31,335 nt of DNA from a virus: the IMG/VR virus record IMGVR_UViG_3300009184_000129, positions 1 to 31,335 of that record; one strand, given 5' to 3'. A model generated the notes under the pieces. It saw only the letters and a list, made by a program, of their open reading frames with translations, ran no database searches and was not told the DNA's origin. A program made the translations under genes and the position numbers. Positions 4,442-24,006 of this stretch are shown here, piece after piece; positions within the stretch are counted from its first letter, which is position 1, and each line of letters begins with the position of its first letter.

Positions 4442-4464
4442 GTGCCTAAAATTTGAGGTGTTGT

Positions 4465-4719
4465 ATGGATACAACGGGTCTATCAAATAGGTCTATCAGC
4501 ACGGTCTATCAACAGGCGTGGTGCAAGTGTGGTCAATCCATTGGCTCAGAACGATTTAACTTAGGATATAGGCTATGTCTAGTTTGTGGAGAAAAAGACG
4601 CAAAGCAAAGAAAGTTTACAGTTGTGCCTATGCCCAAGAGTAACTACATTTTAGTTACAGACATGGCACTATTGCGAGGTTTAAACAGTTCACATAAGGG
4701 GAATTCAGATGGACTTTGA
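4465..4719 (+). CDS. Small zinc-ribbon protein, 84 residues
   Basis: The ATG at 4465 is preceded by GAGGT at good spacing. A TTG 12 nt upstream is less likely. The protein has a CxC near residues 19-21 (WCKCGQ) and a CxxC near 38-41 (CLVCGE), a four-cysteine zinc ribbon, followed by VVPMPKSNYILVTD, a segment I associate with conserved small phage proteins of unknown function. Residues 5-17 (GLSNRSISTVYQQ) are encoded by three tandem 13-bp repeats read in three different frames (see 4477-4515), so the N-terminus looks like an addition to the ribbon. It is the first gene of the long operon. Confidence 0.8.
   Translation: MDTTGLSNRSISTVYQQAWCKCGQSIGSERFNLGYRLCLVCGEKDAKQRKFTVVPMPKSNYILVTDMALLRGLNSSHKGNSDGL
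4477..4515 (+). repeat. Three tandem 13-bp repeats headed by GGTCTATCAR
   Basis: GGTCTATCAAATA, GGTCTATCAGCAC and GGTCTATCAACAG follow one another at 4477, 4490 and 4503. They lie just inside the 5' end of the zinc-ribbon gene. Because 13 is not a multiple of three, the same DNA is read as GLS, RSI and VYQ. Confidence 0.92.
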
Positions 4720-4828
4720 AACATTTATCTTTAGATTCGGGCTAACCATTGTGTTCAGCATCATCATTGCAATGAATGTCATTGGTTGCGTATTGGTGGG
4801 CTATGGTATAGGACACTTTCTATTATGA
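4709..4828 (+). CDS. Small single-span membrane protein, 39 residues
   Basis: The ATG at 4709 is preceded by AAGGGG at 7 nt. The product MDFETFIFRFG is followed by a long hydrophobic stretch (residues 12-32, rich in I, V, F and G) and a short end GIGHFLL. It is an inner-membrane peptide of unknown role. Its stop overlaps the next start as ATGA, so translation of the two genes is probably coupled. Confidence 0.65.
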   Translation: MDFETFIFRFGLTIVFSIIIAMNVIGCVLVGYGIGHFLL

Positions 4829-5166
4829 TGATACTCAATCCCAAGGCTAAAGAATCTCAACAGCAAGAAATTGAGAAACACAAACAATGGCTTGCTAAAG
4901 CCAATGCGGGTCAAATTGAGTTGGGCTTTGATTTTGAAGCCCGTCTTAACATTATAAAATCCAATCTATGGAAAAGCATTCGTGACCTATTACCAGAGGG
5001 TAGACAGGCAGAGGTCTTAATGTCTTTACAGAAAGTTTATCTGTCCAACACTAAAATAGATTTAGACATGGACAATTTGGATTCAGCCATGGTATGGCAA
5101 GACACCATACAAGGGCATGAGTATTGGGCAAGTTTACATTCAATGTGTATGGAGAATGATATATGA
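4825..5166 (+). CDS. Unknown 113-residue helical protein
   Basis: It starts with ATGATG at 4825, overlapping the preceding TGA. An upstream TTG in the same frame lies inside the membrane-peptide gene and is not used here. The product is Gln/Glu/Lys-rich and predicted helical (MMILNPKAKESQQQEIEKHK at the start), followed by a leucine-rich middle (LPEGRQAEVLMSLQKVYL). No motif is recognised. Its stop overlaps the next start (ATGA). Confidence 0.7.
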   Translation: MMILNPKAKESQQQEIEKHKQWLAKANAGQIELGFDFEARLNIIKSNLWKSIRDLLPEGRQAEVLMSLQKVYLSNTKIDLDMDNLDSAMVWQDTIQGHEYWASLHSMCMENDI

Positions 5167-5309
5167 AAATCGTTAATGTTTTTGTTAAACGGAGTCGTTT
5201 GGTCGGTAAAAACTACCATTATACGCTATTTGCACGCAATGCACCGAGAGCGTTTACCTACTTCAAGTGGGATAAACCTATTTCTATGCAAGCCTTTTGT
5301 AAATTGTAA
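5163..5309 (+). CDS. Unknown 48-residue basic protein
   Basis: The ATG at 5163 overlaps the preceding stop in an ATGA. The product begins MKIVNVFVKRSRLVGKNYHY and ends MQAFCKL. It is small, basic and rich in aromatic residues, with no recognised family. The stop at 5307-5309 is followed 10 nt later by the next start. The reading frame and spacing fit the operon well, although the gene is short. Confidence 0.6.
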   Translation: MKIVNVFVKRSRLVGKNYHYTLFARNAPRAFTYFKWDKPISMQAFCKL

Positions 5310-5319
5310 GGGGATTCAC

Positions 5320-5463
5320 ATGAACACTTGTCCTGAATGTAGTGAGTATGTATTGTGTAAAGAATGCCAGCAGGCTTTTGAAGAGGCTCAGGTCTATCAA
5401 CAAGCCGAGCCAGAGCCAACACGCATCAACATAGCCAGTGGAGAAGATGTATGTTTAGCGTAA
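5320..5463 (+). CDS. Mini zinc-ribbon protein, 47 residues
   Basis: The ATG at 5320 is preceded by AAGGGG. The protein opens MNTCPECSEYVLCKECQQAF, with CxxC at residues 4-7 and 13-16, a compact zinc ribbon, then an acidic, Gln/Pro-containing tail. One copy of GGTCTATCAA (5391-5400) encodes VYQQ inside the tail. The 3' end overlaps the next gene by 13 nt. Function is unknown. It could bind nucleic acid or a partner protein. Confidence 0.65.
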   Translation: MNTCPECSEYVLCKECQQAFEEAQVYQQAEPEPTRINIASGEDVCLA

Positions 5464-5879
5464 AATGGAAATCCCGTGACTTCGAGAAGAACGGTCGTGA
5501 CGGCACAATCAAGTATCAGGTTGGTAAAAATGAGGCTATGCTTGTCTGTAGAATAGAAACATGGGCATTTGGTAGTTGTGCTTGCTTTGCATTAAGTAGG
5601 TTCAATGATGCCTACAACTTTCGCTATGATGCAGAGAACATTGATAAATTCTTTGAGTTTGTCTGCGGTTTAGACGAAGATTGGAAGCCCAGAGAGTTTT
5701 ACTTTCTGTTAAGCAAGAGCCAACTTGCTCAGGATAAACTAAAGTTTCTGTATAGACACCCCAATGTCAAATTGCGTGATGTGTTTAGCAACAAATCCCA
5801 TGGTCCAAACAAAGTTTATTTGTTTAGATATTCTGCAAGTAAGGATTTCAAAGCCTTCCGTAAATTGAAGGGTATGTAA
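5451..5879 (+). CDS. Unknown 142-residue protein
   Basis: The ATG at 5451 is preceded by GGAGAAG. The protein is mixed alpha/beta and basic, opening MFSVKWKSRDFEKNGRDG, with clustered cysteines in the middle (CRIETWAFGSCACF, about residues 33-46) that do not form a standard zinc motif, and ending RKLKGM. No family is recognised. It is linked to the next gene by a TAATG overlap. Confidence 0.75.
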   Translation: MFSVKWKSRDFEKNGRDGTIKYQVGKNEAMLVCRIETWAFGSCACFALSRFNDAYNFRYDAENIDKFFEFVCGLDEDWKPREFYFLLSKSQLAQDKLKFLYRHPNVKLRDVFSNKSHGPNKVYLFRYSASKDFKAFRKLKGM

Positions 5880-6265
5880 TGAACATCATAGACATATACA
5901 TAGGCAGAGATTTCTACGACTACAAGCGTAGCCCGTCACACCACGCGTGTGAAACCAATGTAGATGATGACTACATTGATGGACAACTCGAGAGAATTGT
6001 CAAGGAGTTTAAAGCCAAGAAAATCCCTTGGTATCTAATGACTGTCACCACATATGAGGTGGGTGGTGATGTTAACACTGCTCATTATCACAATGCTCAC
6101 CCCATGAAGGAGAAAATCATTCTCAATAAACCCGCTAAAGATGCACCACCCCCTAGGTATGGAATTAACATTGAAGAACTAATTAACGGTCATCATGGAT
6201 TGGCTGTTAATGTCTATGCACCGCCAGAAGCACAACAACCTGTAGAGGAGCCTGACTTTGATTGA
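5879..6265 (+). CDS. Unknown 128-residue protein
   Basis: It starts at ATG 5879 within the TAATG overlap. It is acidic, with many His and Tyr residues (SHHACETN, TAHYHNAHPM) and a proline-rich tail (YAPPEAQQPVEEPDFD). Several His clusters might bind metal, but no catalytic pattern is recognised. The 3' end overlaps the next gene. Confidence 0.75.
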   Translation: MNIIDIYIGRDFYDYKRSPSHHACETNVDDDYIDGQLERIVKEFKAKKIPWYLMTVTTYEVGGDVNTAHYHNAHPMKEKIILNKPAKDAPPPRYGINIEELINGHHGLAVNVYAPPEAQQPVEEPDFD

Positions 6266-6674
6266 ACTAACATTTGCCAGTAAGCGTGTAGTTACACCCC
6301 CTCCTGTATTGGAGGTGTCTAAACTACCATGGTATCCTGCAATACCCCCTAATGTTCAGCAACTAGCCGATGCCAAAGGCATCACTGTCCCTGAATATTT
6401 GAGGCGTGATAAGATTGTCCAAGAACTGTATGCCACAGTTAAACTGAAGGCGGGTGATACCGCATACCCAGTCAATGCTAGTGGCTATGCCAAGTATGGT
6501 GCTTCCATTGTCATAGGTGTATGTAAAACATACAAAGACTTTGGCACTGATGGTGTATGGAATGATGACAATCCCATGATTATCACCTTCTCTCCTCTCA
6601 AGAAACGAGAAGAACACATCTTCTGCACAGCGGATTACCTCGTTCATCGTAACCCCCACATAATTACTTGCTAA
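6258..6674 (+). CDS. Unknown 138-residue protein, TTG start
   Basis: A TTG at 6258 is placed 7 nt after GAGGAG and overlaps the preceding stop. No ATG fits. The N-terminal part is proline-rich (PPPVLEVSKLPWYPAIPPN), then comes a helix with ITVPEYLRRDKIVQELY, then a beta-rich half with CKTYKDFGTDG and FSPLKKREEHIFC. Hydrophobic beta strands around VIGVCKTY suggest a small barrel fold, but I cannot assign it. It lies directly upstream of the amidoligase cluster. Confidence 0.7.
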   Translation: MIELTFASKRVVTPPPVLEVSKLPWYPAIPPNVQQLADAKGITVPEYLRRDKIVQELYATVKLKAGDTAYPVNASGYAKYGASIVIGVCKTYKDFGTDGVWNDDNPMIITFSPLKKREEHIFCTADYLVHRNPHIITC

Positions 6675-7363
6675 GGTCTATCAAATTGCCTACACTAGCC
6701 TACTCACCGTTCGGTAACGGACACTCCATCTACCCCTTTGACGAACTATTCGACAATCAAGTAGATGCCTATGTTAATGGATTCAATGGTGTTGATGCCT
6801 TCCTGTTATGGGGTGGCACAGACATTCATCCATCATTCTATAATGAATCTCCACATAGATTCAATCAAGCCCCATCATTCCCATCTGAGCGTGATATGTG
6901 GGAATGGGGTGCAATGAAAGCGTGCAAAGCCAAGGGTATACCAATCATTGGTGTATGCCGTGGTGCTCAGTTCATGTGTGCATTTGCAGGTGGTAAACTG
7001 ATACAACACGTATCAGGGCATGACCGTGGCTATCACCCAGTGGTTACATCATATGGTAAGACTTATGATGTTACATCAGCACATCATCAGATGCTTGACC
7101 TAACAGACACTGAGCATGAACTAATTGCGTGGTCTCCATCTAATCTCAGTGCTGTATACTATGGTGCTAAGAATGAGACACCAGAACATCTATTGTTACA
7201 GATGCGAGAGTCTAAGTTTAAAGAACCAGAGATTGTATACTTCCCTGAGTTCAAAGGTTTGGCTATTCAGGGACACCCTGAGTGGGCTGATTTAAAAGAA
7301 GAGTTTGTGCAAGAAACAAACCGTTTAGTTGTCGAGTATCTATTTAACGAGAAATGGAAATAA
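6668..7363 (+). CDS. Class I glutamine amidotransferase-like hydrolase (peptidase C26/PuuD type)
   Basis: The triad of class I glutaminases is visible: the nucleophile elbow GVCRGAQ (Cys near residue 98), and GHPEW near residues 198-202 supplying His and Glu. The early GGTDIHPSFY and the SAHHQM segment are typical of the gamma-glutamyl hydrolase (PuuD) branch. It could supply ammonia to the ligases downstream or hydrolyse gamma-glutamyl bonds. Length (231 residues) is normal. The start is unclear: TTG 6668 overlaps the previous stop and lacks a Shine-Dalgarno sequence, whereas TTG 6686 has AAGG nine nucleotides upstream. That AAGG overlaps a copy of GGTCTATCAA (6675-6684). The 3' end overlaps the first amidoligase gene by 10 nt. 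Confidence 0.9.
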   Translation: MLRSIKLPTLAYSPFGNGHSIYPFDELFDNQVDAYVNGFNGVDAFLLWGGTDIHPSFYNESPHRFNQAPSFPSERDMWEWGAMKACKAKGIPIIGVCRGAQFMCAFAGGKLIQHVSGHDRGYHPVVTSYGKTYDVTSAHHQMLDLTDTEHELIAWSPSNLSAVYYGAKNETPEHLLLQMRESKFKEPEIVYFPEFKGLAIQGHPEWADLKEEFVQETNRLVVEYLFNEKWK

Positions 7364-8124
7364 CTATGCGTCTAGGCTCTGACCCCGAAGTATTCCTGCA
7401 AGACCAAGCAGGTAATCCCGTATCTGCCATTGGTTACATCAATGCAGACAAGTGGAATCCTATGCAGATTCCTGATATGCCTGAAGGCTATACCTTGCAA
7501 GAGGACAATGTGTCCCTCGAGTATGGTGTGCCACCAGCATCTAGTGCCGATGAATTTGTTCTTCACATTAACAGTGTGATGACCAAGTCTAAGGAATATC
7601 TACCTAACCTATCATTCTCTAAGTTGTCATGTATCATCTTCCCTGAGAGTCAGATGAATGACCCTCGTGCCCACATCTTCGGTTGTGAGCCTGACTTTGA
7701 TGCTTGGACTAAGGATGTCAACAAGAAACCGAATCCTCCTCATCCTCTTATGCGTAGCGCTGGCGGTCACATCCATGTCGAGACGCAGAAAGATGCACTC
7801 GATGTTATCCGTGCCATGGATTTATTCCTTGGTGTCCCCTCTGTGCTAATGGACGATGGTGAGATGCGTAAGCAGTTGTATGGTAAGGCTGGTGCATTCC
7901 GTGCCAAACCATATGGCGTAGAGTATCGCACTCTCTCTAACTTCTGGATATTTAACGATGACTTGATTCGTTGGGTCTGGAATAATACTCAGCGTGCGTT
8001 AGATAGCGTAGGCGTAGTAGATGTGTCAGCAGAGCAAGAGCGTATCTTGCGGTCTATCAACAACAGCGACAAGAAACTCGCTAAGAAACTGGTTAAAGAA
8101 TATGACTTAGAGGTGCTTTTATGA
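7354..8124 (+). CDS. Amidoligase of phage COOH-NH2 ligase type 2 (GS-like fold)
   Basis: This is a glutamine-synthetase-fold ATP-dependent carboxylate-amine ligase of the type first noted in phiEco32-like phages. It shows LGSDPEVF (residues 7-14, with acid D10 and E12), DNVSLEYGVPP (51-61, acid E56), GGHIHVET (137-144, metal-binding His) and GVEYRTLSNFW (188-198), the standard order of the family. The start may be ATG 7354 or ATG 7366 (MRLGSD), since homologues usually begin close to the second. A motif copy GGTCTATCAA (8051-8060) lies near the 3' end. The gene overlaps its neighbours on both sides. Substrate is unknown; amide-bond formation is the family reaction. Confidence 0.9.
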   Translation: MEITMRLGSDPEVFLQDQAGNPVSAIGYINADKWNPMQIPDMPEGYTLQEDNVSLEYGVPPASSADEFVLHINSVMTKSKEYLPNLSFSKLSCIIFPESQMNDPRAHIFGCEPDFDAWTKDVNKKPNPPHPLMRSAGGHIHVETQKDALDVIRAMDLFLGVPSVLMDDGEMRKQLYGKAGAFRAKPYGVEYRTLSNFWIFNDDLIRWVWNNTQRALDSVGVVDVSAEQERILRSINNSDKKLAKKLVKEYDLEVLL

Positions 8125-8720
8125 TGTTTATCCCCATGCTTGCTGATGATATTAACAAATATTATCGGCATACCTATGTCAAGTTTAAGGAAACTGGCGA
8201 TACCCTGTATTACATTCGTGATGTAAATCACAGATTGATTCGTGGCACTGACCAAGACGGCACAGAGTTTGAACTCTATCTCAGCGATGACCATCCATAT
8301 GAAGTGGATTATGTCTTGCCTAACAAGAGTTTCTTCCAACTGGCTAAGAGTGCTTGCCTGTTACAGCGTATCCCTGCTAAACAGTATCGTCGTGGCTTAT
8401 GCAACGAGAATACTCGTATCACTCGTGTCGGTAAGACTGGTAACCTTGTGTCCATGGACTTATCGTTTGATGTGCTCAAGGCGTTTGTTGGTAAACAGAC
8501 ATTCCCTAGCCTATCCACTGTGCTTATCCAGCGTGCTAAGCCCATCTCCGTAGCCCTGTCCAGCAGATTTGCCTATGTCCCTGAGAATGGTATGCTCTTT
8601 GCTGACCTCACCCCCGTAGCCCAGATTAACAAGAAGGAGAAAACCATTGTGATGCTTCACAATATATTTAGACCTGAGATTGTAGAACTCACCAAGAATA
8701 CTGATTTGGAGTTTGTATGA
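8121..8720 (+). CDS. Unknown 199-residue protein inside the amidoligase cluster
   Basis: It starts at ATG 8121 (ATGATG overlap with the previous stop) and ends four nucleotides into the next gene. It is basic and beta-rich, with no recognised catalytic motif. It opens MMFIPMLADDINKYYRHTYV, has a segment GTDQDGTEFELYLSDD and a patch of basic residues (LQRIPAKQYRRGL). Its position between two amidoligase genes with coupled starts argues for a role in the same pathway, for example as substrate, carrier or scaffold. This is inference. Confidence 0.75.
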   Translation: MMFIPMLADDINKYYRHTYVKFKETGDTLYYIRDVNHRLIRGTDQDGTEFELYLSDDHPYEVDYVLPNKSFFQLAKSACLLQRIPAKQYRRGLCNENTRITRVGKTGNLVSMDLSFDVLKAFVGKQTFPSLSTVLIQRAKPISVALSSRFAYVPENGMLFADLTPVAQINKKEKTIVMLHNIFRPEIVELTKNTDLEFV

Positions 8721-9481
8721 GATTGTTCCAAGCATTAAACCTAAACAAGAGTGACTTAGATGATGCTAAGCAATTTGTTGCTGGCATAGAGTGTGAGATA
8801 GAGAGTGTCGATAGCAAGCGAGACTTCCCTTTCTTTCAGTATACAACAGACGGCAGTCTGCGTAATGACGGTGCAGAGTTCATCTCTATCCCGTTAGAGA
8901 AAGATACATTGATGGGTGCATTCAAGAATCTCCATGCAGAGATTGAATTGTATGAGCCAGAGAATGCTTTCTCCAATCGCACATCAACCCATGTGCATAT
9001 TAATTGCCGTAGCCTAACGGAAGAGAATGCCCGTCAGTTGGTATTGTTCTATGCATTGTTCGAGGAATATTTCTTTGCAATGGTAGACAAAGACCGCAGA
9101 CACAACATTCATTGTGTCCCGCTTACCGAAACATTCTTGCCATCTATATACAAGTATCCATTGCTCAAGGCAATGACACAGTGGCACAAGTATACAGCGT
9201 TGAATGTATTGCCGTTAGCCAAGCAAGGTTCAATAGAGTTCCGTCATCTGCAAGGCACTGACAATCCTGTCTTGCTCGAAGAATGGCTAACAACTTTAGA
9301 CAATCTATGGCGTATGTGTCAGCGTGAGGAAATCAATCCAACCTCGCTGAACAATCCAATCGTGGTGAAACAATGGTGGCGAACATTGTTTGGACATAGC
9401 CCACGCATCATGGCTCTCGAGCCTACTCTCCCAAGCATGACTAGAAACAGTATGCTTGATGTCAAGTTCGCCTTCATCTAA
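8717..9481 (+). CDS. Second amidoligase (GS-like, PF12224 type)
   Basis: A different amidoligase branch from the gene at 7354. Motifs in order are GIECEIE (residues 23-29, acids E25 and E27), TDGSLRNDGAEFIS (44-57), THVHIN (91-96, metal-binding His and the Asn), KYTALN (158-163) and GSIEFRHLQGT (171-181, Glu and Arg of the phosphate/ATP site). All key residues are present, so it should be active. It would join a carboxylate to an amine using ATP. It begins inside the stop of the previous gene (ATGA) and ends 8 nt before the class II glutaminase. Length (254) fits the family. Confidence 0.88.
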   Translation: MRLFQALNLNKSDLDDAKQFVAGIECEIESVDSKRDFPFFQYTTDGSLRNDGAEFISIPLEKDTLMGAFKNLHAEIELYEPENAFSNRTSTHVHINCRSLTEENARQLVLFYALFEEYFFAMVDKDRRHNIHCVPLTETFLPSIYKYPLLKAMTQWHKYTALNVLPLAKQGSIEFRHLQGTDNPVLLEEWLTTLDNLWRMCQREEINPTSLNNPIVVKQWWRTLFGHSPRIMALEPTLPSMTRNSMLDVKFAFI

Positions 9482-9489
9482 GGAACTAT

Positions 9490-10689
9490 ATGTGTGGTAT
9501 CGTAGGCGTAGTCCTAAAAACTGATAAGGGTTTTCTAAAACAAACAGAAGACTCCTTCTACCAAATGCTATATGCTGATGCTTTGCGTGGCGATGACAGC
9601 ACTGGCATTATATCTGTGGAGAATGACACAACATTCCACATATCCAAAGAAGCAAGCCACCCTGCATGGTTTATCCCTATCTATGATGCAAGCCCAGTAG
9701 GTAAGGCTATGTGGTCGGATGGTAGGGCGCTCATTGGTCACAATCGTAAGAAGACCATGGGTCTTATCGATGACACAAGTGCTCACCCATTCGTAGTAGG
9801 CGATGAGTTTGCTATGGTTCATAACGGCACATTGTATAATCATCAAGCACTAGCCAAGACAACAGTCGACAGCGAGGCATTGACTATTCACTTAGCCAAA
9901 GCATTCGAGCATGATGACTATGTCGCTGATGTAGAGGAAGCATTGGGTCAGGTAAACGGTGCATATGCCGTGGCTATGTATGACCAGAGACACAATGCCA
10001 TTCGTCTCTTGCGTAACAAAGAACGACCGTTATGTTACATAGAAATGGACAATGCTTGGTATTTTGCTAGCGAGGCAGGTATGTTGCTGTGGATATTATC
10101 CCGCAATGGCTATGACATGACTAAGAGCAAGGTGCAATTCATTCCTGAGCATACTCTTGTATCGTTTAACTTAGATAACAATACGATGAACGAAGAGGTA
10201 TTGGTGCCAAAAAAGCCCTATACCCCTATCAAGACTATAGTCAAGGCATATACGGGGGGTATGGCGGGTATTAATGGGAAGGATGGGTTGAGCAAAAATG
10301 CTTTCAAGCGATTTCGTAGAAAGATTATTAACACCAAGTTAGAATGGTGGTGTGAAGATTTCATCGAATCCAACTACCCCAAAACATTATACGATGGCGA
10401 AGTAATGCTTACCCTCATGGGTGTGTCTGACGGATTGCTCATTGACCATCATCTGTCAACAGAAATAAATTACAAAGATTTAATTCTTACTCCAGATGAC
10501 TTGACAGATAGGCTCTGGACTGGTATAGTAGAGGATGTGTTCTATGACGTTAAGTCTAAGCGCGTATCCATCCATCTTAGAGATGCTCTCCCCCTCCCTG
10601 TATCCTATCGCAAGAACACTGTAATAGATGCAGAATACATCAGAAGGAAACTAGATGATAAAGAAAAAGCCGAGTCTCTTGTGCACTGA
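9490..10689 (+). CDS. Class II (Ntn) glutamine amidotransferase
   Basis: The protein starts MCGIVGVV, so that Cys2 becomes the N-terminal nucleophile after Met removal. It also shows RGDDSTG (33-39), GHNR (83-86), VHNGTLYN (110-117, oxyanion Asn/Gly) and DSEA (127-130), the complete glutaminase site of the GlmS/PurF/AsnB family. The first 200 residues are the glutaminase domain. The remaining 200 residues (after about KKPYTPIKT) are not a known synthetase domain and may dock the ligases. It is expected to release ammonia from glutamine for the cluster. GGAAC lies upstream of the ATG. A candidate promoter (10501-10529) lies in the 3' part. Confidence 0.93.
   Translation: MCGIVGVVLKTDKGFLKQTEDSFYQMLYADALRGDDSTGIISVENDTTFHISKEASHPAWFIPIYDASPVGKAMWSDGRALIGHNRKKTMGLIDDTSAHPFVVGDEFAMVHNGTLYNHQALAKTTVDSEALTIHLAKAFEHDDYVADVEEALGQVNGAYAVAMYDQRHNAIRLLRNKERPLCYIEMDNAWYFASEAGMLLWILSRNGYDMTKSKVQFIPEHTLVSFNLDNNTMNEEVLVPKKPYTPIKTIVKAYTGGMAGINGKDGLSKNAFKRFRRKIINTKLEWWCEDFIESNYPKTLYDGEVMLTLMGVSDGLLIDHHLSTEINYKDLILTPDDLTDRLWTGIVEDVFYDVKSKRVSIHLRDALPLPVSYRKNTVIDAEYIRRKLDDKEKAESLVH
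10501..10529 (+). promoter_or_regulatory. Candidate sigma70 promoter inside the class II glutaminase gene
   Basis: TTGACA (10501-10506), a 17-nt spacer and TATAGT (10524-10529, one base off consensus) lie within coding sequence. It would start transcripts about 120 nt before the ATP-grasp gene. Coding constraint could produce this by chance, so it is less certain than the others. Confidence 0.5.
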
Positions 10690-13268: not shown

Positions 13269-13281
13269 ACGAAAGGACGTT

Positions 13282-13838: not shown

Positions 13839-13892
13839 TATATGTATATATAGTATATAATATATATAATATAATATATAAGGAGTATATCT

Positions 13893-16802: not shown

Positions 16803-16980
16803 AATAAAACAACTTGAGTATAACGACGGACTTGTCAACTTTGCTTCTTTGTTACAACAACATGGAGTTAAGCGAGTGCTAATGGATTTCCAGATGCATT
16901 ACCCTGGCTATTTTATGGAGATTAAGAATGCCATTAACACCTATCCAAACAAACCCGCAGCAGCTCTCCTAAGAAAGTAA
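16795..16980 (+). CDS. Unknown 61-residue protein in the polymerase split
   Basis: The ATG at 16795 has AGAAGGAG upstream, and the stop overlaps the start of the polymerase C-terminal gene as TAATG. The product is helical (LVNFASLLQQHGVKRVLMDF), with no known motif. Tight overlaps on both sides show it is part of the coupled operon rather than a passive insertion. Confidence 0.7.
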   Translation: MTEIKQLEYNDGLVNFASLLQQHGVKRVLMDFQMHYPGYFMEIKNAINTYPNKPAAALLRK

Positions 16981-17693: not shown

Positions 17694-17718
17694 CACGGAG
17701 ATTAAAACGTGTTACAAT
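17690..17718 (+). promoter_or_regulatory. Sigma70 promoter for the ssDNA-binding protein gene
   Basis: TTGACA (17690-17695), a 17-nt spacer and TACAAT (17713-17718, one base off) overlap the stop of the polymerase gene. The gene start is 33 nt further on. The RNA genes at 18.3 kb could also be read from here. Confidence 0.82.
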
Positions 17719-17750
17719 AATAGTATAGACACTAATAATTTAAGGAAATT

Positions 17751-18290
17751 ATGAACATAACCATTTTGTCTGTTGACATTAAAACAGTACCTACCGCTAA
17801 AGGTAGCTATCAAACCGCTGACGTTGCTTACAAGAACAACTCGTTCCAAGGCAAAGTAGAAGGTAAGAAGGTCATGTCCTTCGGTGCAACCAAAGATAGC
17901 TTCTCAACATTGGCTCTTGCACAGCCAGGCGAAAGTTACGAGGTTACAATTGTTAAAAATGACAAAGGCTACAACGACTGGGTCTCCATGGCTAAGGCTG
18001 AGGCTGGGGCCTCTAGCCCTGCTGTATCGGCTTCTGCTGGTGGTAAGGCTCCTGCAGCAACGCCACGTAGCACCTACGAAACACCAGAAGAACGGGCGCA
18101 GAGGCAAGTACTTATTGTACGTCAATCTAGCCTTAGTGCTTCTGTCAATCTGCTATTGGCTGGCGCTAAAACTCCACCATCAGTAGAAAGCGTATTAGCT
18201 ATCGCTAAGCAGTTTGAAGACTATGTGTTTGGTAAACAAGCACTTGGTCCCATCAGTGAGATGTCTGACGACTTCCCACAGGTAGACTAA
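17751..18290 (+). CDS. Single-stranded DNA-binding protein, OB-fold type
   Basis: This abundant replication protein probably coats ssDNA. It has a beta-rich N-terminal half (ITILSVDIKTVPTAKGSYQT onward, to about residue 85) consistent with an OB fold, an Ala/Ser/Pro linker (about 85-108), a helical part and an acidic C-terminus DDFPQVD like the partner-binding tips of SSBs. The ATG follows AAGGAAATT. It has its own promoter directly after the polymerase gene. Assignment rests on domain plan, tail and position rather than on a diagnostic motif. Confidence 0.8.
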   Translation: MNITILSVDIKTVPTAKGSYQTADVAYKNNSFQGKVEGKKVMSFGATKDSFSTLALAQPGESYEVTIVKNDKGYNDWVSMAKAEAGASSPAVSASAGGKAPAATPRSTYETPEERAQRQVLIVRQSSLSASVNLLLAGAKTPPSVESVLAIAKQFEDYVFGKQALGPISEMSDDFPQVD

Positions 18291-18295
18291 ATAAT

Positions 18296-18370
18296 GCAGC
18301 GTTTAGTGTAATGGTAGCACACGATTCTGTGAAAGTCGTAGAAACGGATCAAAACCGTAACGTCTGCCCA
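18296..18370 (+). tRNA. tRNA-His (anticodon GTG) with bulged acceptor stem, CCA encoded
   Basis: The D arm is GTGT-AATGGTA-GCAC. The anticodon arm is CGATT-CTGTGAA-AGTCG with GTG at 34-36. The T arm is ACGG-ATCAAAA-CCGT (four clean pairs). The acceptor is GCAGCGTT with AACG-T-CTGC: eight pairs including the histidine-specific extra G-C, with a single T bulged on the 3' side. CCA is encoded. The bulge and an A in place of T54 make it somewhat degenerate, so charging should not be assumed. Confidence 0.78.
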
Positions 18371-18376
18371 TAGTTT

Positions 18377-18468
18377 TGAGGGTTGTCAAGCCAGCAATCG
18401 AGGATGTTGACGTAGGGCTTTTTCTGGCTTTCCACCCTACCTAGTTGAAGACCAAATCGAAACCCTCA
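18377..18468 (+). ncRNA. Structured RNA of unknown class between two tRNA-type genes
   Basis: An outer stem TGAGGGTT/AACCCTCA (18377-18384 with 18461-18468) encloses two hairpins that are directly adjacent in sequence: GTCAA/TTGAC (18385-18389 with 18407-18411) and GTAGGG/CCCTAC (18412-18417 with 18435-18440). Both have 17-nt loops. The loops contain complementary GCCAG (18390-18394) and CTGGC (18424-18428). If the first hairpin opens, the pairing extends to AAGCCAG/CTGGCTT, a pseudoknot. It does not fold as a tRNA (no D-loop GG, no TTC loop) and has no ORF. I do not recognise the class. Confidence 0.4.
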
Positions 18469-18476
18469 CCCTATTA

Positions 18477-18546
18477 GCTGATATAGTTCAATTGGTAGAA
18501 TGCTCGGGGTATCTGAGTAAATGGGAGTTCGAGTCCCCCTATCAGC
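18477..18546 (+). tRNA. tRNA-like gene with shortened anticodon arm
   Basis: The acceptor is perfect over seven pairs (GCTGATA/TATCAGC). The D arm GTTC-AATTGGTA-GAAT and the TTCGAGT T loop are normal, although one T-stem pair is A-C. The anticodon arm is only 15 nt instead of 17: CTCGG-GGTAT-CTGAG (5-nt loop) or CTCG-GGGTATC-TGAG (7-nt loop, GTA at the anticodon place but G instead of U33). No CCA is encoded. It may be a tRNA-Tyr relative, a decayed tRNA, or a tRNA-like RNA with another job. Confidence 0.6.
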
Positions 18547-18554
18547 TTTCTTAT

Positions 18555-18821
18555 ATGAAAATACCTAAACAATTTAATCTGGCTGGTTCTACATGGACAG
18601 TCACACAAATACATGATTACAATCTCTTAGGAAGTTGTAACCGTGACACTAGACAAATCATTCTAAAGAAGAATGTTATGCAAGAGGTTAAGGAACAAAC
18701 CTTCTACCATGAACTCATTCATGCAATCTTTTACATGTTAGGTAAAGATGAACATGATGAGAAAGAGGTAGATGTGCTTGCTACTTTCCTACATCATTTT
18801 ATACAATCTGCGGAGTACTAA
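18555..18821 (+). CDS. Small zinc metallopeptidase-like protein (HExxH)
   Basis: The ATG at 18555 lies 9 nt after the tRNA-like gene. The frame is open upstream but only through that RNA. The 88-residue product has FYHELIHAIFY with the HExxH zinc site (H52, E53, H56) and a downstream acid-rich helix DEKEVDVLATFLHH (Glu71 is a candidate third ligand). The short, single-helix-pair form resembles minimal phage peptidase-like proteins. Substrate is unknown, and loss of activity cannot be excluded. The stop overlaps the next start (TAATG). Confidence 0.8.
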   Translation: MKIPKQFNLAGSTWTVTQIHDYNLLGSCNRDTRQIILKKNVMQEVKEQTFYHELIHAIFYMLGKDEHDEKEVDVLATFLHHFIQSAEY

Positions 18822-18973
18822 TGCCTTTAAAGAAATCTAAATCAAGTAAAGCTGTTTCTGAAAACATTAAAACAGAAATGAAAGCTGGTAAGCCCCAAAA
18901 GCAAGCAGTAGCAATTGCTTTGGATGTCAAGCGTAAAGCAGGCGGTAAAGTTCCTGCAAAGAAAGGCATGTAA
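18821..18973 (+). CDS. Small basic protein, 50 residues
   Basis: It starts in a TAATG overlap. It reads MPLKKSKSSKAVSENIKTEM and continues through KAGKPQKQAVAIALDVKRKA. The KAVSENIKTEMKAG/KPQKQAVAIAL pattern is one I know as a conserved small phage protein (DUF6496-like). It is lysine-rich and may bind DNA. It is the first of three overlapping basic genes. Confidence 0.75.
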   Translation: MPLKKSKSSKAVSENIKTEMKAGKPQKQAVAIALDVKRKAGGKVPAKKGM

Positions 18974-19137
18974 TGGCTACAAAACCTGGATTGTATGCAA
19001 ACATTAACGCAAAAAAAGAACGTATTAAAGCAGGTTCTGGTGAACACATGAACAAGGTTGGTAGTAAAAATGCTCCAACCAAACAAGATTTCATTGACTC
19101 TGCTAAAACTGCAAAGAAACCAAAGAAAGGTAAATAA
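18973..19137 (+). CDS. Small basic protein, 54 residues
   Basis: It starts and ends in TAATG overlaps. It reads MATKPGLYANINAKKERIKA and has GSGEHMNKVGSKNAPTKQDF, a pattern I recognise from small conserved proteins of aquatic phages. It is rich in Lys, with no cysteine and no membrane segment. Function is unknown. Confidence 0.75.
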   Translation: MATKPGLYANINAKKERIKAGSGEHMNKVGSKNAPTKQDFIDSAKTAKKPKKGK

Positions 19138-19433
19138 TGGTAGCTGCTTGGCAAAAGAAAGAAGGTAAGAATCCAAAGGGTGGGCTTAACGCAAAAGGCC
19201 GTGCCTCTTACAAAGCTGAAACAGGGGGTACATTAAAGGCTCCTGTTAAGTCAGGAGACAATCCACGACGTGCTTCTTTTCTAGCACGTATGGGTGGTAT
19301 GCCTGGCCCAGAAGAGAAGGATGGTAAACCTACCCGTCTTAAGCTGTCCTTACAGGCTTGGGGTGCTTCATCTAAAGCAGACGCTAAGGCTAAAGCCAGC
19401 GCAATTTCTGCACGTAACAAAAAGGCTAAATGA
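19137..19433 (+). CDS. DUF6321-like basic protein, 98 residues
   Basis: The sequence WQKKEGKNPKGGLNAKGRAS, then KAPVKSGDNPRRASFLARMG and MPGPEEKDGKPTRLKLSLQA, is characteristic of a widespread family of unknown function in phages and viral metagenomes (DUF6321). It is highly basic with Gly/Lys/Arg-rich segments and an Ala/Lys C-terminal tail (ADAKAKASAISARNKKAK). It may be nucleic-acid binding. It ends in an overlap with the exonuclease gene. Confidence 0.85.
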   Translation: MVAAWQKKEGKNPKGGLNAKGRASYKAETGGTLKAPVKSGDNPRRASFLARMGGMPGPEEKDGKPTRLKLSLQAWGASSKADAKAKASAISARNKKAK

Positions 19434-20116
19434 CCACAGCACTAATCGATGCTGACATTGTGGCGTACCGTTGTGCTGCTGCGAGCGAGAATGAACCTGT
19501 AGAGGTAGCTCTCGTTCGTACAGATGAACTGATACGTCGCATCTTGTTAGAAACAAACAGCGATACATACAAAACCTACCTCACTGGTAGTGATAACTTT
19601 CGATACGAATTCAACCCTGAATACAAAGCCAATCGTAAGGACACGCCTAGACCTAAATGGTTACAGCAAGTCCGTGAATACATTTGTACAGAATGGGGAG
19701 CATCAGTAGAGAACCACCAAGAAGCGGATGATGCCATGGGCATTTATCAGATGGCTAACAAAGACACTGTCATTTGTACCATAGATAAAGACTTGTTGAT
19801 GATTCCTGGAGAACATTTTAATTTTGTAACAGGAACACATCGTGAACAATTTCCAATCCCTGCTATTCGCCACTTCTATTATCAGCTTATCATGGGCGAT
19901 CGTACTGACAATATATTTGGCTTTGATGGGAAAGCTCGACAAAGCGTCCCCAAAAAGCTCGAATCTACTATTGCAGAGCTGGAGAGTTACGACGATGAGC
20001 TTGACATGTTTGAGTTTGTACGTAATCTTTATGGCGACGATGAACGCCTTCTCATGAACGGAGTATGTTTGTGGATAAGACGTCAAGAGGATGAAGTCTG
20101 GAAATTTCCTACATGA
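19430..20116 (+). CDS. 5'-3' exonuclease, flap/PIN-like fold (T7 gp6 type)
   Basis: It degrades 5' ends and removes primers, and in T7-like phages also supplies nucleotides and recombination ends. Acidic metal-site motifs are complete: ALIDADIVAYR (D7, D9), EYKANR (K66, R69 of the arch/gateway), EADDAMG (E98, D100, D101), TIDKDLLMI (D119, D121) and GDRTDNI.G (D157, D160). Length (228) is short for the family but includes all of these. It starts in an ATGA overlap and ends in another with the HNH gene. Confidence 0.88.
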   Translation: MTTALIDADIVAYRCAAASENEPVEVALVRTDELIRRILLETNSDTYKTYLTGSDNFRYEFNPEYKANRKDTPRPKWLQQVREYICTEWGASVENHQEADDAMGIYQMANKDTVICTIDKDLLMIPGEHFNFVTGTHREQFPIPAIRHFYYQLIMGDRTDNIFGFDGKARQSVPKKLESTIAELESYDDELDMFEFVRNLYGDDERLLMNGVCLWIRRQEDEVWKFPT

Positions 20117-20490
20117 GAAATGGTGGGAAGTGGACAGAAGCTCGTTACCGAAGCTTTGTAACATCTACACTCAGGGCAGGGAGTCGCAAATGGCCTCCTA
20201 AGTATGAAACACTTAATGCTGCCAAGACCGAGAAGAAGATCAATAAAGCAACAGGACGTTTAGCACAACATTATCTATGTGCAATGTGTGAGCAAGAGTA
20301 TACACAGAAAAATGTGCAAGTAGATCACATAAAGCCTGTCGTTGACCCCAAGAAAGGATTTGTATCTTGGGATACATACATCGACAGAATGTTTTGTGAA
20401 GGTAAGAACTTGCAAGTACTGTGTAAAGTATGCCACGTAGAAAAAACTAAACTTGAGAAAGAAATATCAAAGAAATATGCTAATAAATAA
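20113..20490 (+). CDS. HNH endonuclease with structural zinc
   Basis: This 125-residue protein has CAMC (56-59) and CKVC (104-107) as the zinc knuckles and VQVDHIKP (D71, H72), N99 and H108 as the HNH centre. The N-terminal half is basic (RSFVTSTLRAGSRKWPPKYE). The complete motif set predicts an active DNA nickase or nuclease. Its tight ATGA link with the 5'-3' exonuclease suggests a role in DNA processing rather than a free homing element, though either is possible. Confidence 0.88.
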   Translation: MRNGGKWTEARYRSFVTSTLRAGSRKWPPKYETLNAAKTEKKINKATGRLAQHYLCAMCEQEYTQKNVQVDHIKPVVDPKKGFVSWDTYIDRMFCEGKNLQVLCKVCHVEKTKLEKEISKKYANK

Positions 20491-20665
20491 AAGTATTGAA
20501 ACAGAGAATGGCACAGTTAAATTCCAAGGTGAATTAGAACAAGAAGAGTTGGACTTCATTCTAAAGATTGGACTTAACACTTTATTACAGATGGGTGCTA
20601 TACCGTTTACTTCTAAATATACAGAGACAGACATTGCTTCGGGTAAGTCTGAACATGTCCAATGA
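20477..20665 (+). CDS. Conserved small phage protein, 62 residues
   Basis: The ATG at 20477 lies inside the end of the HNH gene. A TTG eight codons upstream only extends into it. The product reads MLINKSIETENGTVKFQGEL, then EQEELDFILKIGLNTLLQMG and AIPF. The TENGTVKFQGELEQEELDF pattern recurs in many phages with no known function. It ends in an ATGA with the membrane-protein gene. Confidence 0.75.
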   Translation: MLINKSIETENGTVKFQGELEQEELDFILKIGLNTLLQMGAIPFTSKYTETDIASGKSEHVQ

Positions 20666-20823
20666 GCAACATCTTGTTGGGTATCACTGGCTTAATATAC
20701 GTCGGTGTATCCTTAGATTACTTCTTCAAAGGTAATGTTGGAATGGCTCTGTCATTCTTTGCCTATTCATTAGCAAACGTAGGATTCATTTTAGCAAATG
20801 GCGAAACATTTAGTACTGCCTGA
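20662..20823 (+). CDS. Two-span small membrane protein, 53 residues
   Basis: It starts in an ATGA overlap. Hydrophobic segments at residues 4-18 (ILLGITGLIYVGVSL) and 28-46 (GMALSFFAYSLANVGFILA) flank the short loop DYFFKGN. The pattern is that of a small inner-membrane hairpin protein conserved in aquatic phages. The 3' end overlaps the phosphoesterase gene by 26 nt. Confidence 0.72.
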   Translation: MSNILLGITGLIYVGVSLDYFFKGNVGMALSFFAYSLANVGFILANGETFSTA

Positions 20824-21565
20824 CGTACAGGCAAAACCTGGGGTTGACTTTAGTTACCTCAATAAAATTGGTAGGTATGCTGTAGAAAAGAAGCCTGATA
20901 CAATCGTATGTATTGGAGACTTTGCAGATATGCCTAGTTTATCTAGTTACGATGTTGGAAAGAAAAGCTTTGAAGGCAGACGTTACATCTCAGATATTGA
21001 AGCGAGTAAGAGCGCTATGGTTAGCTTCCTGTCTCCGATATGGGAGTTTAATGCACGAGCTAAGAAAAATAAGGAAAAGCAATACAAACCACAGTTGGTA
21101 TTGACTCTAGGCAATCATGAAAACAGAATCAACCGAGCTGTCAATGATGATCCAAAGTTGGAAGGAGTTCTTTCTATTGGAGATCTTAATTATGAAGAGT
21201 ATGGTTGGGACGTTCATAACTTCCTTGATGTTGCTGTCATCGATGGTGTTGCTTATTCCCATTACTTTACTACTGGCCTTATGGGCCGTCCTGTCACAAC
21301 TGCTGCTGCCTGCCTTAGCAAGAAGCATATGTCTTGTGTGCAAGGACATCAACAGGGATTACAGATTGCGACAGGTTACAAAGCAGATGGAGGACTCCTC
21401 ACGTCGGTGATAGCAGGCTCCTGTTATGAACATGATGAAGACTACATGTCCAGCCAAGGCAACAGACATTGGCGTGGGTTCTTGATGCTTCATGATGTAC
21501 AAGATGGTGAGTTTGACCTAATGCCCGTAAGTCTTAATTACATAAATAAAAAGTATGCTAAATGA
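20798..21565 (+). CDS. Calcineurin-like metallophosphoesterase
   Basis: This is a two-metal phosphoesterase fold. Motifs: LVLPDVQ (D9, with Q where many family members have H), CIGDFADMP (GD-x), LTLGNHENR (GNHE), SHYF (metal His), and QGHQQGLQI (GHxQ, where the family usually has GHTH). It is 255 residues, normal size. It probably hydrolyses phosphodiester or phosphomonoester bonds in nucleotides or nucleic acids. The altered first and last motifs are common in the phage branch. The ATG at 20798 lies inside the preceding membrane-protein gene. Confidence 0.87.
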   Translation: MAKHLVLPDVQAKPGVDFSYLNKIGRYAVEKKPDTIVCIGDFADMPSLSSYDVGKKSFEGRRYISDIEASKSAMVSFLSPIWEFNARAKKNKEKQYKPQLVLTLGNHENRINRAVNDDPKLEGVLSIGDLNYEEYGWDVHNFLDVAVIDGVAYSHYFTTGLMGRPVTTAAACLSKKHMSCVQGHQQGLQIATGYKADGGLLTSVIAGSCYEHDEDYMSSQGNRHWRGFLMLHDVQDGEFDLMPVSLNYINKKYAK

Positions 21566-21812
21566 AACAGACATAAAAGATTATAAAGAACTAAACATTC
21601 CACAACCCGATCCTGTGGAGCATCCCCTACACTACACCGTGCATCCCTCTGGTATTGAATGTATTCAGATTACAGAGCACATGGGGTTTAACTTAGGGAA
21701 TGCTTTGAAGTACATCTGGCGTTGTGATCTAAAGAGAGATGCCGTAGAGGACTTACGCAAGGCTATGTGGTACATTAACCGAGAATTGGAGAAGCGCAAT
21801 GCAGATAAATGA
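21555..21812 (+). CDS. DUF3310 protein (nucleotide kinase-associated family)
   Basis: The sequence HPLHYTVHPSGIECIQITEH, then MGFNLGNALKYIWRCDLKRD and AVEDLRKAMWYINRELEK, is a full DUF3310 domain, the module found alone or in T7 gp1.7-like nucleotide kinases. At 85 residues this is the stand-alone form. It begins in the end of the phosphoesterase gene and overlaps the next gene, placing it in the nucleotide-metabolism block before nrdJ. Confidence 0.9.
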   Translation: MLNETDIKDYKELNIPQPDPVEHPLHYTVHPSGIECIQITEHMGFNLGNALKYIWRCDLKRDAVEDLRKAMWYINRELEKRNADK

Positions 21813-21957
21813 CATTAATGAAAATGAAGACGGTAGCGCTACCCTACAGGTAACCTTTGCACCAAAAGAAGTGGGCTATCTCTTAGAGAAAGCACTCGTC
21901 GACATGCTGCAAGATTACATTGAAAAAACACCTTCTTATGCACATAATGAAACTTGA
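21799..21957 (+). CDS. Unknown 52-residue protein
   Basis: The ATG at 21799 lies in the end of the DUF3310 gene with GAGAAG upstream. It reads MQINDINENEDGSATLQVTF, then APKEVGYLLEKALVDMLQDY. It is acidic and probably a strand followed by helices. No family is assigned. It overlaps the next start by 11 nt. Confidence 0.65.
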   Translation: MQINDINENEDGSATLQVTFAPKEVGYLLEKALVDMLQDYIEKTPSYAHNET

Positions 21958-22099
21958 AGAACTTAAAACACTTATTGTGCATAACTTGGATGTTGTAGAA
22001 TTGTTAGACATCATAGGACGTGACATATCCGATCTTGTCGAAGCCTTTGAAGACGATGTTAGTGAATGCTTTGACGACCTTGCTAAAGCAGTGGAATGA
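21947..22099 (+). CDS. Small acidic helical protein, 50 residues
   Basis: The ATG at 21947 overlaps the previous gene. It reads MKLEELKTLIVHNLDVVELL and DIIGRDISDLVEAFEDDVSE. The DVVELLDI...DLVEAFED pattern is one I have seen in small conserved phage proteins beside nucleotide-metabolism genes. Function is unknown. It is coupled to the next gene by ATGA. Confidence 0.7.
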   Translation: MKLEELKTLIVHNLDVVELLDIIGRDISDLVEAFEDDVSECFDDLAKAVE

Positions 22100-22248
22100 A
22101 AAAGAAACAAGCTAAGAAGCCTTTCTTAGAACGAATACTTCAGGAAAAAGATGCAACAAAAACCATCAGAACCTATCAGCAAAGAGACAAAGCCCCACCC
22201 ATACCGTTGCCAGAAACATCGTATGTGGATGAAAAGAGGCCATTGTGA
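22096..22248 (+). CDS. Unknown 50-residue basic protein
   Basis: It starts in an ATGA overlap with the previous gene. It reads MKKKQAKKPFLERILQEKDA, then RTYQQRDKAPPIPLPE. The basic N-terminus and proline-rich end match no known family. The last 98 nt overlap the next gene in another frame, so at least one of the two may be weakly translated. Confidence 0.5.
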   Translation: MKKKQAKKPFLERILQEKDATKTIRTYQQRDKAPPIPLPETSYVDEKRPL

Positions 22249-22339
22249 ACTTTGTTGTTTGGAACGCGATGCACTAAAACGAGAGAACGAACTATTAGGT
22301 GGCTCCAACAAACCTAAAGTTTTTATAAGGAAAATATGA
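22151..22339 (+). CDS. Small Cys/His-rich protein before nrdJ, 62 residues
   Basis: The ATG at 22151 has CAGGAAAAAG upstream, and the stop overlaps the nrdJ start in ATGA. It carries YRCQKHRMWMKRGHCELCCL (C20, H23, C32, C35), a plausible zinc site. It overlaps the 22096 gene by 98 nt. The good ribosome-binding site and coupling to nrdJ support it. Confidence 0.6.
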   Translation: MQQKPSEPISKETKPHPYRCQKHRMWMKRGHCELCCLERDALKRENELLGGSNKPKVFIRKI

Positions 22340-24006
22340 CAGAAACAAATCGGTTCCGTAATTCTTTTGGCGAAAATATCTTTCGCTATAAATATGCTCA
22401 AGGCCCAGGGGACACGTGGGATAAGCTGGCTGAACGTCTTGTAGAGGATGTTTGTGGTGCTCGTTGGGGCACAACACAAGCTCTTATGTCCCATGCAGAA
22501 CAGAAACAGCTCATTGAGTATATCAAGGAAATGAAATTCCTGCCTGGCGGACGTTACCTTTATTATGCAGGTCGTCCATACAAAGCCTATAATAATTGCT
22601 ATCTGCTACGAGCAGAAGAAGACACAAGAGAAGAATGGAGTGCAGTTACATGGCGTGCAATGAGTTGTTTAATGACTGGGGGCGGAATTGGAATTGACTA
22701 TTCGAGACTCCGTCCTGCTGGAAAGGCTCTTAGCCGAACAGGTGGCACTGCATCAGGACCTATTCCACTTATGTATGCGATCAACGAAATCGGGCGAAAT
22801 GTTATGCAAGGAGGCTCGAGACGTTCTGCAATTTATGCCTCTCTTAATTGGAGACATGAAGATGTTGATAAATTCTTGCACGTTAAAGACTGGTCCCCAG
22901 ACGTAAAGGCTGCTAAGGAAAAAGACTTTAATGCTTTTGCTCCGCTAGACATGACTAACATTTCTGTTAATTATGATGACGGTGCATTCATGATGAAGAA
23001 CGGAGACCCTGGTAGCTATAGCCTAGCTAACAATCCCGTGTTTGTAGAAAACTGCCGACAGGCACTGATGACAGGAGAACCTGGCTTCAGCTTTAACTTT
23101 GGAAAGAAACAGAATGAAACACTTAGGAATGCTTGTACTGAGGTTACTTCGGAAGACGACAGTGATGTTTGTAATCTTGGGAGCATCAATCTTGGCAATA
23201 TCGAAAGTATTGATGAGTTCAAGTCAATTGTACACCTTGCCTCTAAGTTCCTTGTATGCGGAACTCTTAGAGCGGATTTACCTTACGACAAAGTTCACCG
23301 AATTCGCGAGAAAAATCGGAGGCTCGGACTCGGACTCATGGGGATCCACGAATGGCTACTTAAACGAAGCGCTGGATATACTGTTAGCCCAGAACTCCAC
23401 AAATGGTTAAAGGTCTATCAGCAAGAAAGCGAGATAGCAGCCAATGAACACTGCGACAGATTCTACCTCAACCATCCCGCTGCATACAGAGCTATTGCGC
23501 CTACAGGATCAATTGGTATCCTTGCAGGCACGACTACTGGAATTGAGCCATTATTTGCAGTTGCATACAAACGACGATTCCTTACTGAAGGAACCAAATG
23601 GAAATATCAGTACGTTGTTGACGGAACGGCTCAGAATCTTATCACGGAGTATGGCGTTGATCCAAGCAAGATTGAATCGGCTATTGACTTAAGCGAGAAC
23701 TATGAACAGCGAATCAAATTCCAAGCAGACATTCAAGATTACGTTGACATGTCAATCTCGTCAACCATCAATCTACCCTCCTGGGGAAGTGCTGGAAACA
23801 ATGACAAGCGCGTACAGTCTTTTACAGAAACTCTTGCAAAGTATGCCCCAAGACTGCGAGGTTTCACTTGCTATCCAGACGGAAGCCGAGGCGGACAACC
23901 TCTCACGTCCGTACCATACGAAGATGCCATTAAAAGCAAAGACATGATCTTTGATGAAGTTGACATCTGTGAATTCACAGGTCACGGTGGAAGCTGTGGC
24001 GTATGA
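22336..24006 (+). CDS. nrdJ: Adenosylcobalamin-dependent ribonucleotide reductase (class II)
   Basis: It makes deoxyribonucleotides. The barrel shows NNCYLL (redox Cys88), RNACTEV (N264, C266, E268, the NxCxE radical site) and DVCNLGSINLGNI (partner Cys278), plus APTGSIGILAGTTTGIEPLF of the phosphate site. The C-terminus CEFTGHGGSCGV supplies the re-reducing cysteines. There is no NrdB or NrdD/NrdG partner nearby and no ATP-cone at the N-terminus, which fits the monomeric-type class II. It needs B12 from host or environment. A motif copy GGTCTATCAG (23412-23421) encodes VYQQ. The start overlaps the preceding gene. Confidence 0.92.
   Translation: MTETNRFRNSFGENIFRYKYAQGPGDTWDKLAERLVEDVCGARWGTTQALMSHAEQKQLIEYIKEMKFLPGGRYLYYAGRPYKAYNNCYLLRAEEDTREEWSAVTWRAMSCLMTGGGIGIDYSRLRPAGKALSRTGGTASGPIPLMYAINEIGRNVMQGGSRRSAIYASLNWRHEDVDKFLHVKDWSPDVKAAKEKDFNAFAPLDMTNISVNYDDGAFMMKNGDPGSYSLANNPVFVENCRQALMTGEPGFSFNFGKKQNETLRNACTEVTSEDDSDVCNLGSINLGNIESIDEFKSIVHLASKFLVCGTLRADLPYDKVHRIREKNRRLGLGLMGIHEWLLKRSAGYTVSPELHKWLKVYQQESEIAANEHCDRFYLNHPAAYRAIAPTGSIGILAGTTTGIEPLFAVAYKRRFLTEGTKWKYQYVVDGTAQNLITEYGVDPSKIESAIDLSENYEQRIKFQADIQDYVDMSISSTINLPSWGSAGNNDKRVQSFTETLAKYAPRLRGFTCYPDGSRGGQPLTSVPYEDAIKSKDMIFDEVDICEFTGHGGSCGV

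Follow-up and report, generated by a model that had tools for sequence, protein, structure and literature searches.

A dispersed one-strand word in an uncultured phage as a likely site of strand-specific nicking

Fixed nicks in phage DNA and the repeated word

The discovery that some phage DNA carries single-strand interruptions at fixed places goes back about fifty years, with their purpose left unexplained (PMC11780129; likewise PMC3517423). In Pseudomonas phage tf (Krylovvirus), 14 nicks with 3'-OH and 5'-P ends in virion DNA were mapped on one strand at TACT/RTGMC; they can be sealed by ligase, and 11 of the 14 lie in the left half of the genome (Glukhov and others, PMC3517423). Rembedalsseter carries 13 nicks at WACTRTGAC, a word enriched in 60 relatives, and its breaks appear as drops in nanopore coverage at the sites (Dougherty and others, PMC11780129). 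Read pile-ups occur at eight GTACTATGAC positions in a LUZ24-like phage (PMC3634792), and sheared libraries break at nicks, according to a paper on a Klebsiella phage (PMC7291057). Here we analyse the IMG/VR record IMGVR_UViG_3300009184_000129 at its full length of 31,335 bases (hereafter the window), probably a fragment of an uncultured phage, in which the word GGTCTATCAR recurs on one strand. From sequence comparison, we consider it likely that this word is recognised by a strand-specific DNA nickase which the phage encodes.

The window resembles tf in several respects. In both, a 9-mer is dispersed, confined to one strand, accompanied by few single-mismatch copies, located mostly within genes and densest in the early half; both genomes show the same two convergent arms and four enzymes of an amidoligase cluster, and the words align on C-T-R-T-S-A. 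The nick sites of tf, 14 per genome, are carried as sci features in its sequence record. Unlike tf, the window has the word GGTCTATCAR (group GG[TA]C[TG]ATCA), with R after TCA, and its nicks are predicted, whereas those of tf are mapped. The LUZ24-like phage P1-14Or01, with the same word as PaP3, and Rembedalsseter (TACTATGAC, WACTRTGAC) likewise have a dispersed, early-dense, one-strand word mostly within genes; in contrast, their aligned word differs at positions 1, 2, 7 and at the last base, and their hosts are Pseudomonas. The phiKMV-like phages also have site-specific nicks on one strand (CGACNNNNNCCTA/CTCCGG), but at an unrelated longer word and on the non-coding strand, and the major nicks of T5 and BF23 (R/GCGCRGG; genes sciA and sciB) are fixed in virion DNA too, but at a looser site in an unrelated phage (all as cited in PMC3517423).

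On recount, the window holds nine exact copies on the plus strand and none on the minus strand, at the positions given by the original prediction (Table 1), and its readings of the copies as GLS, RSI and VYQ are correct. A dinucleotide shuffle gave a mean of 0.22 copies and a maximum of 2 in 100 shuffles. The excess also survives synonymous codon shuffling within genes: the 42 mechanically called open reading frames (ORFs) together hold 8 of the 9 copies, whereas 2000 shuffles averaged 0.40 and never gave more than 3. No additional copy with a single mismatch occurs, against 3.6 expected in all, and the word read backward is missing from both strands of the whole record. Given these absent near-misses, the window word is all-or-nothing. 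Copies one to three stand in tandem at 13-nt intervals, and the nine copies therefore occupy seven separate places. GGTCTATCAR is thus a real, functional-looking DNA signal.

Turnover, geometry and lineage variants of the word

Nine genomes totalling 299 kb, selected for several copies each (G000, G030, G032, G039, G040, G043, G042, G044 and G023), carry 64 copies in the early-sense orientation, against 3 in the opposite one. Nine letters are fixed in the 64 sites; the next base is A in 46, G in 14, T in 4 and C in none, and the second base past the nine letters is C in 45. Conservation beyond about 11 nt is slight, save for a weak A two bases upstream (38/64), which speaks against the small mobile repeat suggested originally. 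These genomes also contain one-mismatch copies: 23 share the strand of the exact copies, with GGACTATCA accounting for 10, and 9 are on the opposite strand. The group word GG[TA]C[TG]ATCA was counted in 12 loci found via the gene at 8121, where it has 87 sense and 0 antisense copies and 4 backward-read ones in all, for a query that came from motif-bearing phages and a set in which six loci lie in already-used records and L191 and L195 are near-copies. A search with amidoligase-cluster genes recovered the word in excess in 10 of its 11 loci.

Across 12 phages, 66 of 94 early-strand sites can be placed in genes known from the window, and they fall in the three reading frames 24, 19 and 23 times. 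Only 3 of the 94 lie outside every mechanical ORF of at least 40 amino acids on that strand. The site in the ATP-grasp gene occupies the identical codon in six genomes and is displaced in G032. The polymerase site keeps codon 73, but four genomes use frame 2 there and G039 uses frame 0. A single site in the COOH.NH2 ligase gene is present in 10 of the 12 phages, at codon 70, 85, 214, 220, 221 or 233 (window numbering). Nine short related contigs (L010-L017 and L023) share the copy in the ribonucleotide reductase gene. The shifting of positions and frames within the same genes therefore indicates turnover of a DNA signal rather than protein conservation, in agreement with the original proposal that the signal is in the DNA or RNA; related phages conserve the copies or have gained them again, as the original check asked. 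Close pairs of the motif were confined to the window species, G040, G037 and G038; the tandem-pair matches in G037 and G038 were taken as chance.

The copies are also unevenly distributed along the genome. In a count by arm of 94 copies in nine phages, the early arm has 65 in its first half and 19 in its second, all 84 on one strand; 7 late copies are on that same early strand, and the other strand has 0 early and 3 late copies. This count covers nine of the 11 configured phages, as two without set borders were omitted, allows 900 bases of slack at the early end, and represents QDWS535, PQ867852 and PQ867841 by their first 50,000 bases. Its words came from the discovery step described below, so that the strand bias is partly selected for; the gradient is not. 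The corresponding figures for first half, second half and late arm are 7, 2 and 0 in the window and 8, 4 and 2 in tf. This clustering in the early arm does not suit the Chi-like, genome-wide polarity that had been raised for the word. Short distances between sites are avoided (Fisher p 7e-7 for 14 genomes, not all unrelated to one another, after merging of arrays). The late copies of tf, PaP3, QDWS535 and PQ867841 stay on the early strand.

By protein, the nearest named phages include Alcaligenes phage QDWS535, the uncultured podovirus MW202697 and the Methylophilales phages MEP401 and MEP402, with Pseudomonas phages tf and PaP3 as more distant named relatives. In 35 sequences, all 9-mers with at least four copies were ranked by their excess over a Markov model, with no preset word, and a word of the same family ranked first in 14. 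Ten of these have GGTCTATCA at the top, including contig G036, which belongs to the window's own phage (9/0 on the two strands in the window). GGTCGATCA is top in QDWS535 (11/0) and in L152 (6/0; 6/1 in the whole record), and GGTCGGTCA in L153 (10/0). By the same unbiased test, the top word of tf is TACTGTGAC (11/0), its experimentally mapped nick site TACT/RTGMC. The other 21 sequences, many of them short or with other backbones, have a different word at the top.

Further variants were found in other phages: 16 copies of GGTC[GT]ATCA on one strand and 0 on the other in QDWS535, TACTATGAC in PaP3 (8/0), TACTATCAT in Vibrio phage 1.293.O (7/1), GCTATCAT in two oyster-associated phages (10/1 and 11/0), GGTATCATC in PQ867843 (6/0) and ATGCTATCA in Citrobacter phage CVT22 (8/0). 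By score alone, GGTATCATC, ATGCTATCA and the Vibrio word TACTATCAT are near noise. When the 256 8-mers of the family were scanned over 36 sequences, 16 sequences scored above 5, among which PQ867843 passes by a word other than its proposed one. The backward-read family exceeded 5 in two of the 36, tf and PaP3, whose backward words overlap the true word. Copies of GGACTATCA and GGACGATCA are likewise on the right strand. The intermediate series TACTATGAC, TACTATCAT, GGACTATCA, GGTCTATCA, GGTCGATCA and GGTCGGTCA supports the alignment, placing GGTCTATCA against TACTRTGMC at C-T-R-T, and the family words align on C-[T/G]-R-T-S-A. Lineages therefore carry their own variants of the word. Two other words were rejected: TTCATTCTCC, which outranks the family word ATGCTATCA in CVT22, resembles ribosome-binding sites, and GTACCTGT of MEP402 lies mostly in tail-fibre and adjoining late genes. 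No family word was found in MW202701.

The nick-site reading and its alternatives

The sites, their strand lock, turnover, spacing and gradient, together with their sequence kinship to mapped nick sites, lead us to read GGTCTATCAR as a nick site; in the window, the word is short, near-invariant, on one strand only and densest towards the early end. Of the original interpretation, the strand-locked nucleic-acid signal stands and the roles then listed for it are not supported; localized single-strand interruptions, which fit best, were not among them. We infer from these comparisons that the DNA of the window phage is nicked, as well as the position, timing and enzyme of the cut. A nickase would cut the motif-bearing strand at each copy late in infection, at GGTCT/ATCAR as predicted by alignment with the mapped tf cut. 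The packaged DNA would then be interrupted in one strand at about seven to nine fixed places, set most closely towards the early-gene end, and a ligase would seal the breaks in the next infection. As the early strand does not serve as template for the early genes, nicks in it would spare the template of the RNA polymerase. As a guess, the nicks could relieve strain on this non-template strand while the DNA is being packaged, or while it enters the cell and is first transcribed.

Several observations weigh against this reading. Neither TACTATGAC nor TACTGTGAC occurs in the window (TACTRTGCC being outside the count); as judged from these two, the exact word TACTRTGMC of the Pseudomonas phages is absent there, and the window word is its sister, not TACTRTGMC itself. 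With ribonucleotide reductase as a marker of kinship (at least 80 loci, 35 records counted whole, and three further counted records from the tandem-pair scan), 19 of the 35 relatives had no copy and three (G023, G030 and G032) had five or more; this marker was dropped, and amidoligase-cluster genes served better. Among the loci found with the latter, L154 (G047), recovered via the COOH.NH2 ligase, is the exception, with no word in excess and two lone GGTC-type copies. Phage phiEco32, annotated with ATP-grasp and glutamine amidotransferase and presumably carrying the rest of the amidoligase cluster, has no family word in excess, and the cluster was rejected as the cause of the word. Unrelated words score 9.6 in MW202701 and 13.2 in CVT22, so that a lone score is weak evidence. 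Seven records of the GGTCTATCA group have five late copies on the opposite strand, sense to late genes, against 0.48 expected, two of the five being one homologous site. One of 45 true contig ends lies within 20 nt of a site (23 copy-bearing records, one L147 end excluded). Finally, the nicks of phiKMV lie on the non-coding strand (PMC3517423), which does not fit the sparing of the template.

In the search for the enzyme no gene stood out as the nickase, a further point on this side. The HNH gene at 20113-20490 was rejected as the common nickase, its profile being without a match in QDWS535, G045, G046 (a fragment), tf and PaP3, and VRR-NUC was found in none of 23 records, with the search of nuclease families limited to HNH and VRR-NUC. 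The gene at 8121-8717, between the COOH.NH2 ligase and the amidoligase, has the word alongside it in all 12 of the loci found with it. Its predicted fold (pLDDT 91.5) contains small beta barrels; a comparison with the PDB gave weak matches, none at E <= 0.001, the best being an Hfq (Z 4.9, rmsd 2.3 over 54 residues), and a viral library gave eight matches at E <= 0.001. P-A-[KR]-Q and R-G are invariant in the protein. As the modelled fold does not appear nuclease-like and the invariant residues include no nuclease signature, this gene is not proposed as the nickase.

Among the alternatives, an RNA-level signal in early transcripts, such as a processing, antitermination or regulator-binding site, seems improbable. 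It would agree with the 84 of 94 copies that are sense to early genes, and with the late copies of the GGTCTATCA group described above, which are sense to late genes. However, two mapped tf nicks (sci13 and sci14) and one late copy of QDWS535 are antisense to late genes, little is conserved past the core of the 64 sites, and the sites fall at many places in genes while avoiding one another.

It is very improbable that a phage repressor or silencer uses the word as its asymmetric operator. In mycobacteriophage L5, stoperators are short, asymmetric, dispersed sites in a single orientation, bound by a repressor and mostly intergenic, and the word shares with them its asymmetry, its shortness, a single orientation to transcription and a loose likeness to their consensus. 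Unlike stoperators, nearly all sites of the word are within ORFs, the window proteins scanned included none named as a repressor or an integrase, and the word is kin to mapped nick sites. The intragenic positions tell equally against the operator or promoter role raised originally, as does the near absence of a T7-type RNA polymerase (PF00940), found in one of 39 records and not in the window, G023, G030, G032 or G036.

We regard recognition sites for the primase or another replisome component, guiding lagging-strand priming, as highly improbable, although the primase, also named in the original prediction, is less firmly excluded than its other roles. The strand lock and the kilobase spacing would suit such sites, and GGTC resembles the primase sites of T7. 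To our knowledge, however, primase sites are far shorter than this all-or-nothing word of 9 nt. In addition, MEP401 and MEP402 keep the primase, helicase and polymerase (by annotation and by profile, respectively), lack the full amidoligase cluster and show an excess of none of the family words, although GGTC-type copies do occur three times in MEP402, each time on the plus strand. This pattern argues, not conclusively, against the primase, helicase or polymerase as reader of the sites. Chance, codon usage or a protein repeat can be dismissed: some kin copies do encode conserved residues (e.g., the late site common to G032 and G018), but the codon-preserving and shuffle nulls, the use of three frames and the gain at new positions refute it for the window.

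The nick-site reading may be extended, more tentatively and with doubt, to a diversifying nickase-and-site system across a wide clade of amidoligase-cluster phages, with early non-template nicks acting as swivels for the end that is packaged or injected first. The clade would comprise uncultured, Alcaligenes, Vibrio, Citrobacter, oyster-associated and Pseudomonas phages, in which the word would drift by lineage under constant strand, spacing and gradient. Profiles for the COOH.NH2 ligase, amidoligase, GATase II and ATP-grasp had matches in QDWS535, G045, G046, MW202697, tf, PaP3, Vibrio 1.293.O, three oyster phages and CVT22, and MEP402 has only the GATase of these enzymes. In the window species, two 13-mers might be shed from the triple 13-nt array, so that 26 nt near the early end, directly after two terminators, would be left single-stranded. 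Related words changing by lineage would make the nickase findable by genome comparison, and the phages named here include cultured ones in which nicking is testable. Beyond the genetics of T5, no enzyme behind fixed nicks is known, and the words hint at strand-specific nickases with 9-bp sites that might be of use as reagents. Among the literature matches listed, with subscription papers mostly outside the search, none described GGTCTATCA or GGTCGATCA as a word for nicks, and the papers found on this kind of phage give only the Pseudomonas word.

Features of the window and its phage

The window consists of two convergent arms, early/replication genes against late genes, with rightward genes from 3501 to 24006 and leftward genes after them. 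The rightward amidoligase-type cluster (7354-11359) comprises glutamine amidotransferase, COOH.NH2 ligase, amidoligase and ATP-grasp, and further rightward genes encode a primase, a DnaB-like helicase, a split family-A polymerase, an exonuclease, an HNH endonuclease, a phosphoesterase and the ribonucleotide reductase. Contig G036 (32,596 bases) is the same phage (99.9% identity over both overlaps) and supplies the remaining late arm, which has no motif copy. This contig ends at window position 8068, 9 nt past the motif copy at 8051, as breakage at a nick might produce, the single such case among the 45 ends.

Table 1. Motif copies, predicted nicks and other features of the window.
Feature	Coordinates	Strand	Remark
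Three-copy tandem array (4477, 4490, 4503)	4477..4511	+	Start of small ORF with weak zinc-ribbon match (Pfam, below cut-off)
Predicted nicks in tandem array	after 4481, 4494, 4507	+	Predicted
Motif copy	5391..5400	+	Predicted nick 5395/5396
Motif copy, start of glutamine-amidotransferase ORF	6675..6684	+	Predicted nick 6679/6680
Motif copy, COOH.NH2 ligase gene	8051..8060	+	Predicted nick 8055/8056
Motif copy, ATP-grasp gene	10730..10739	+	Predicted nick 10734/10735
Motif copy, polymerase exonuclease ORF	15681..15690	+	Predicted nick 15685/15686
Motif copy, ribonucleotide reductase gene	23412..23421	+	Predicted nick 23416/23417
Rightward early/replication arm	3501..24149	+	All nine copies inside
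Leftward late arm	24195..31331	-	0 copies
Divergent sigma-70-type promoter matches, 12/12 on -, 11/12 on +	2303..2403	.	Heads of two arms; consensus match only

Near-perfect divergent matches to the sigma-70 consensus (12 and 11 of 12), at 2303-2403 and 2393-2469, head both arms; the region has 19 sigma-70-type matches, against 12.1 +- 4.5 in shuffles. At 13795-13881 there is a similar stretch, in which an AT-rich run comes after TTGACA. Intrinsic terminators lie upstream of the first copy or array in three genomes: two in the window (4385-4433), two in G040 (region 39463-39595) and one in G039 (reverse strand). They begin 63-139 nt before that first copy or array, which is itself at the start of the next ORF. 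A scan of 13 phages for a terminator before a site recovered the first site of three related genomes, plus one site in G043 and one in QDWS535, and a preceding terminator was dropped as a general feature of the sites.

Two separate ORFs make up the family-A DNA polymerase, one for the exonuclease (15463-16587) and one for the polymerase (16980-17693), with an ORF of 61 amino acids between them, and two polymerase genes are annotated likewise in QDWS535, MW202697 and MEP402. A tRNA-Met (1606-1680, minus strand) lies within the leftward ORF at 1475-2254, and the early arm carries tRNA-His (18297-18368) and tRNA-Tyr (18476-18548), both on the plus strand.

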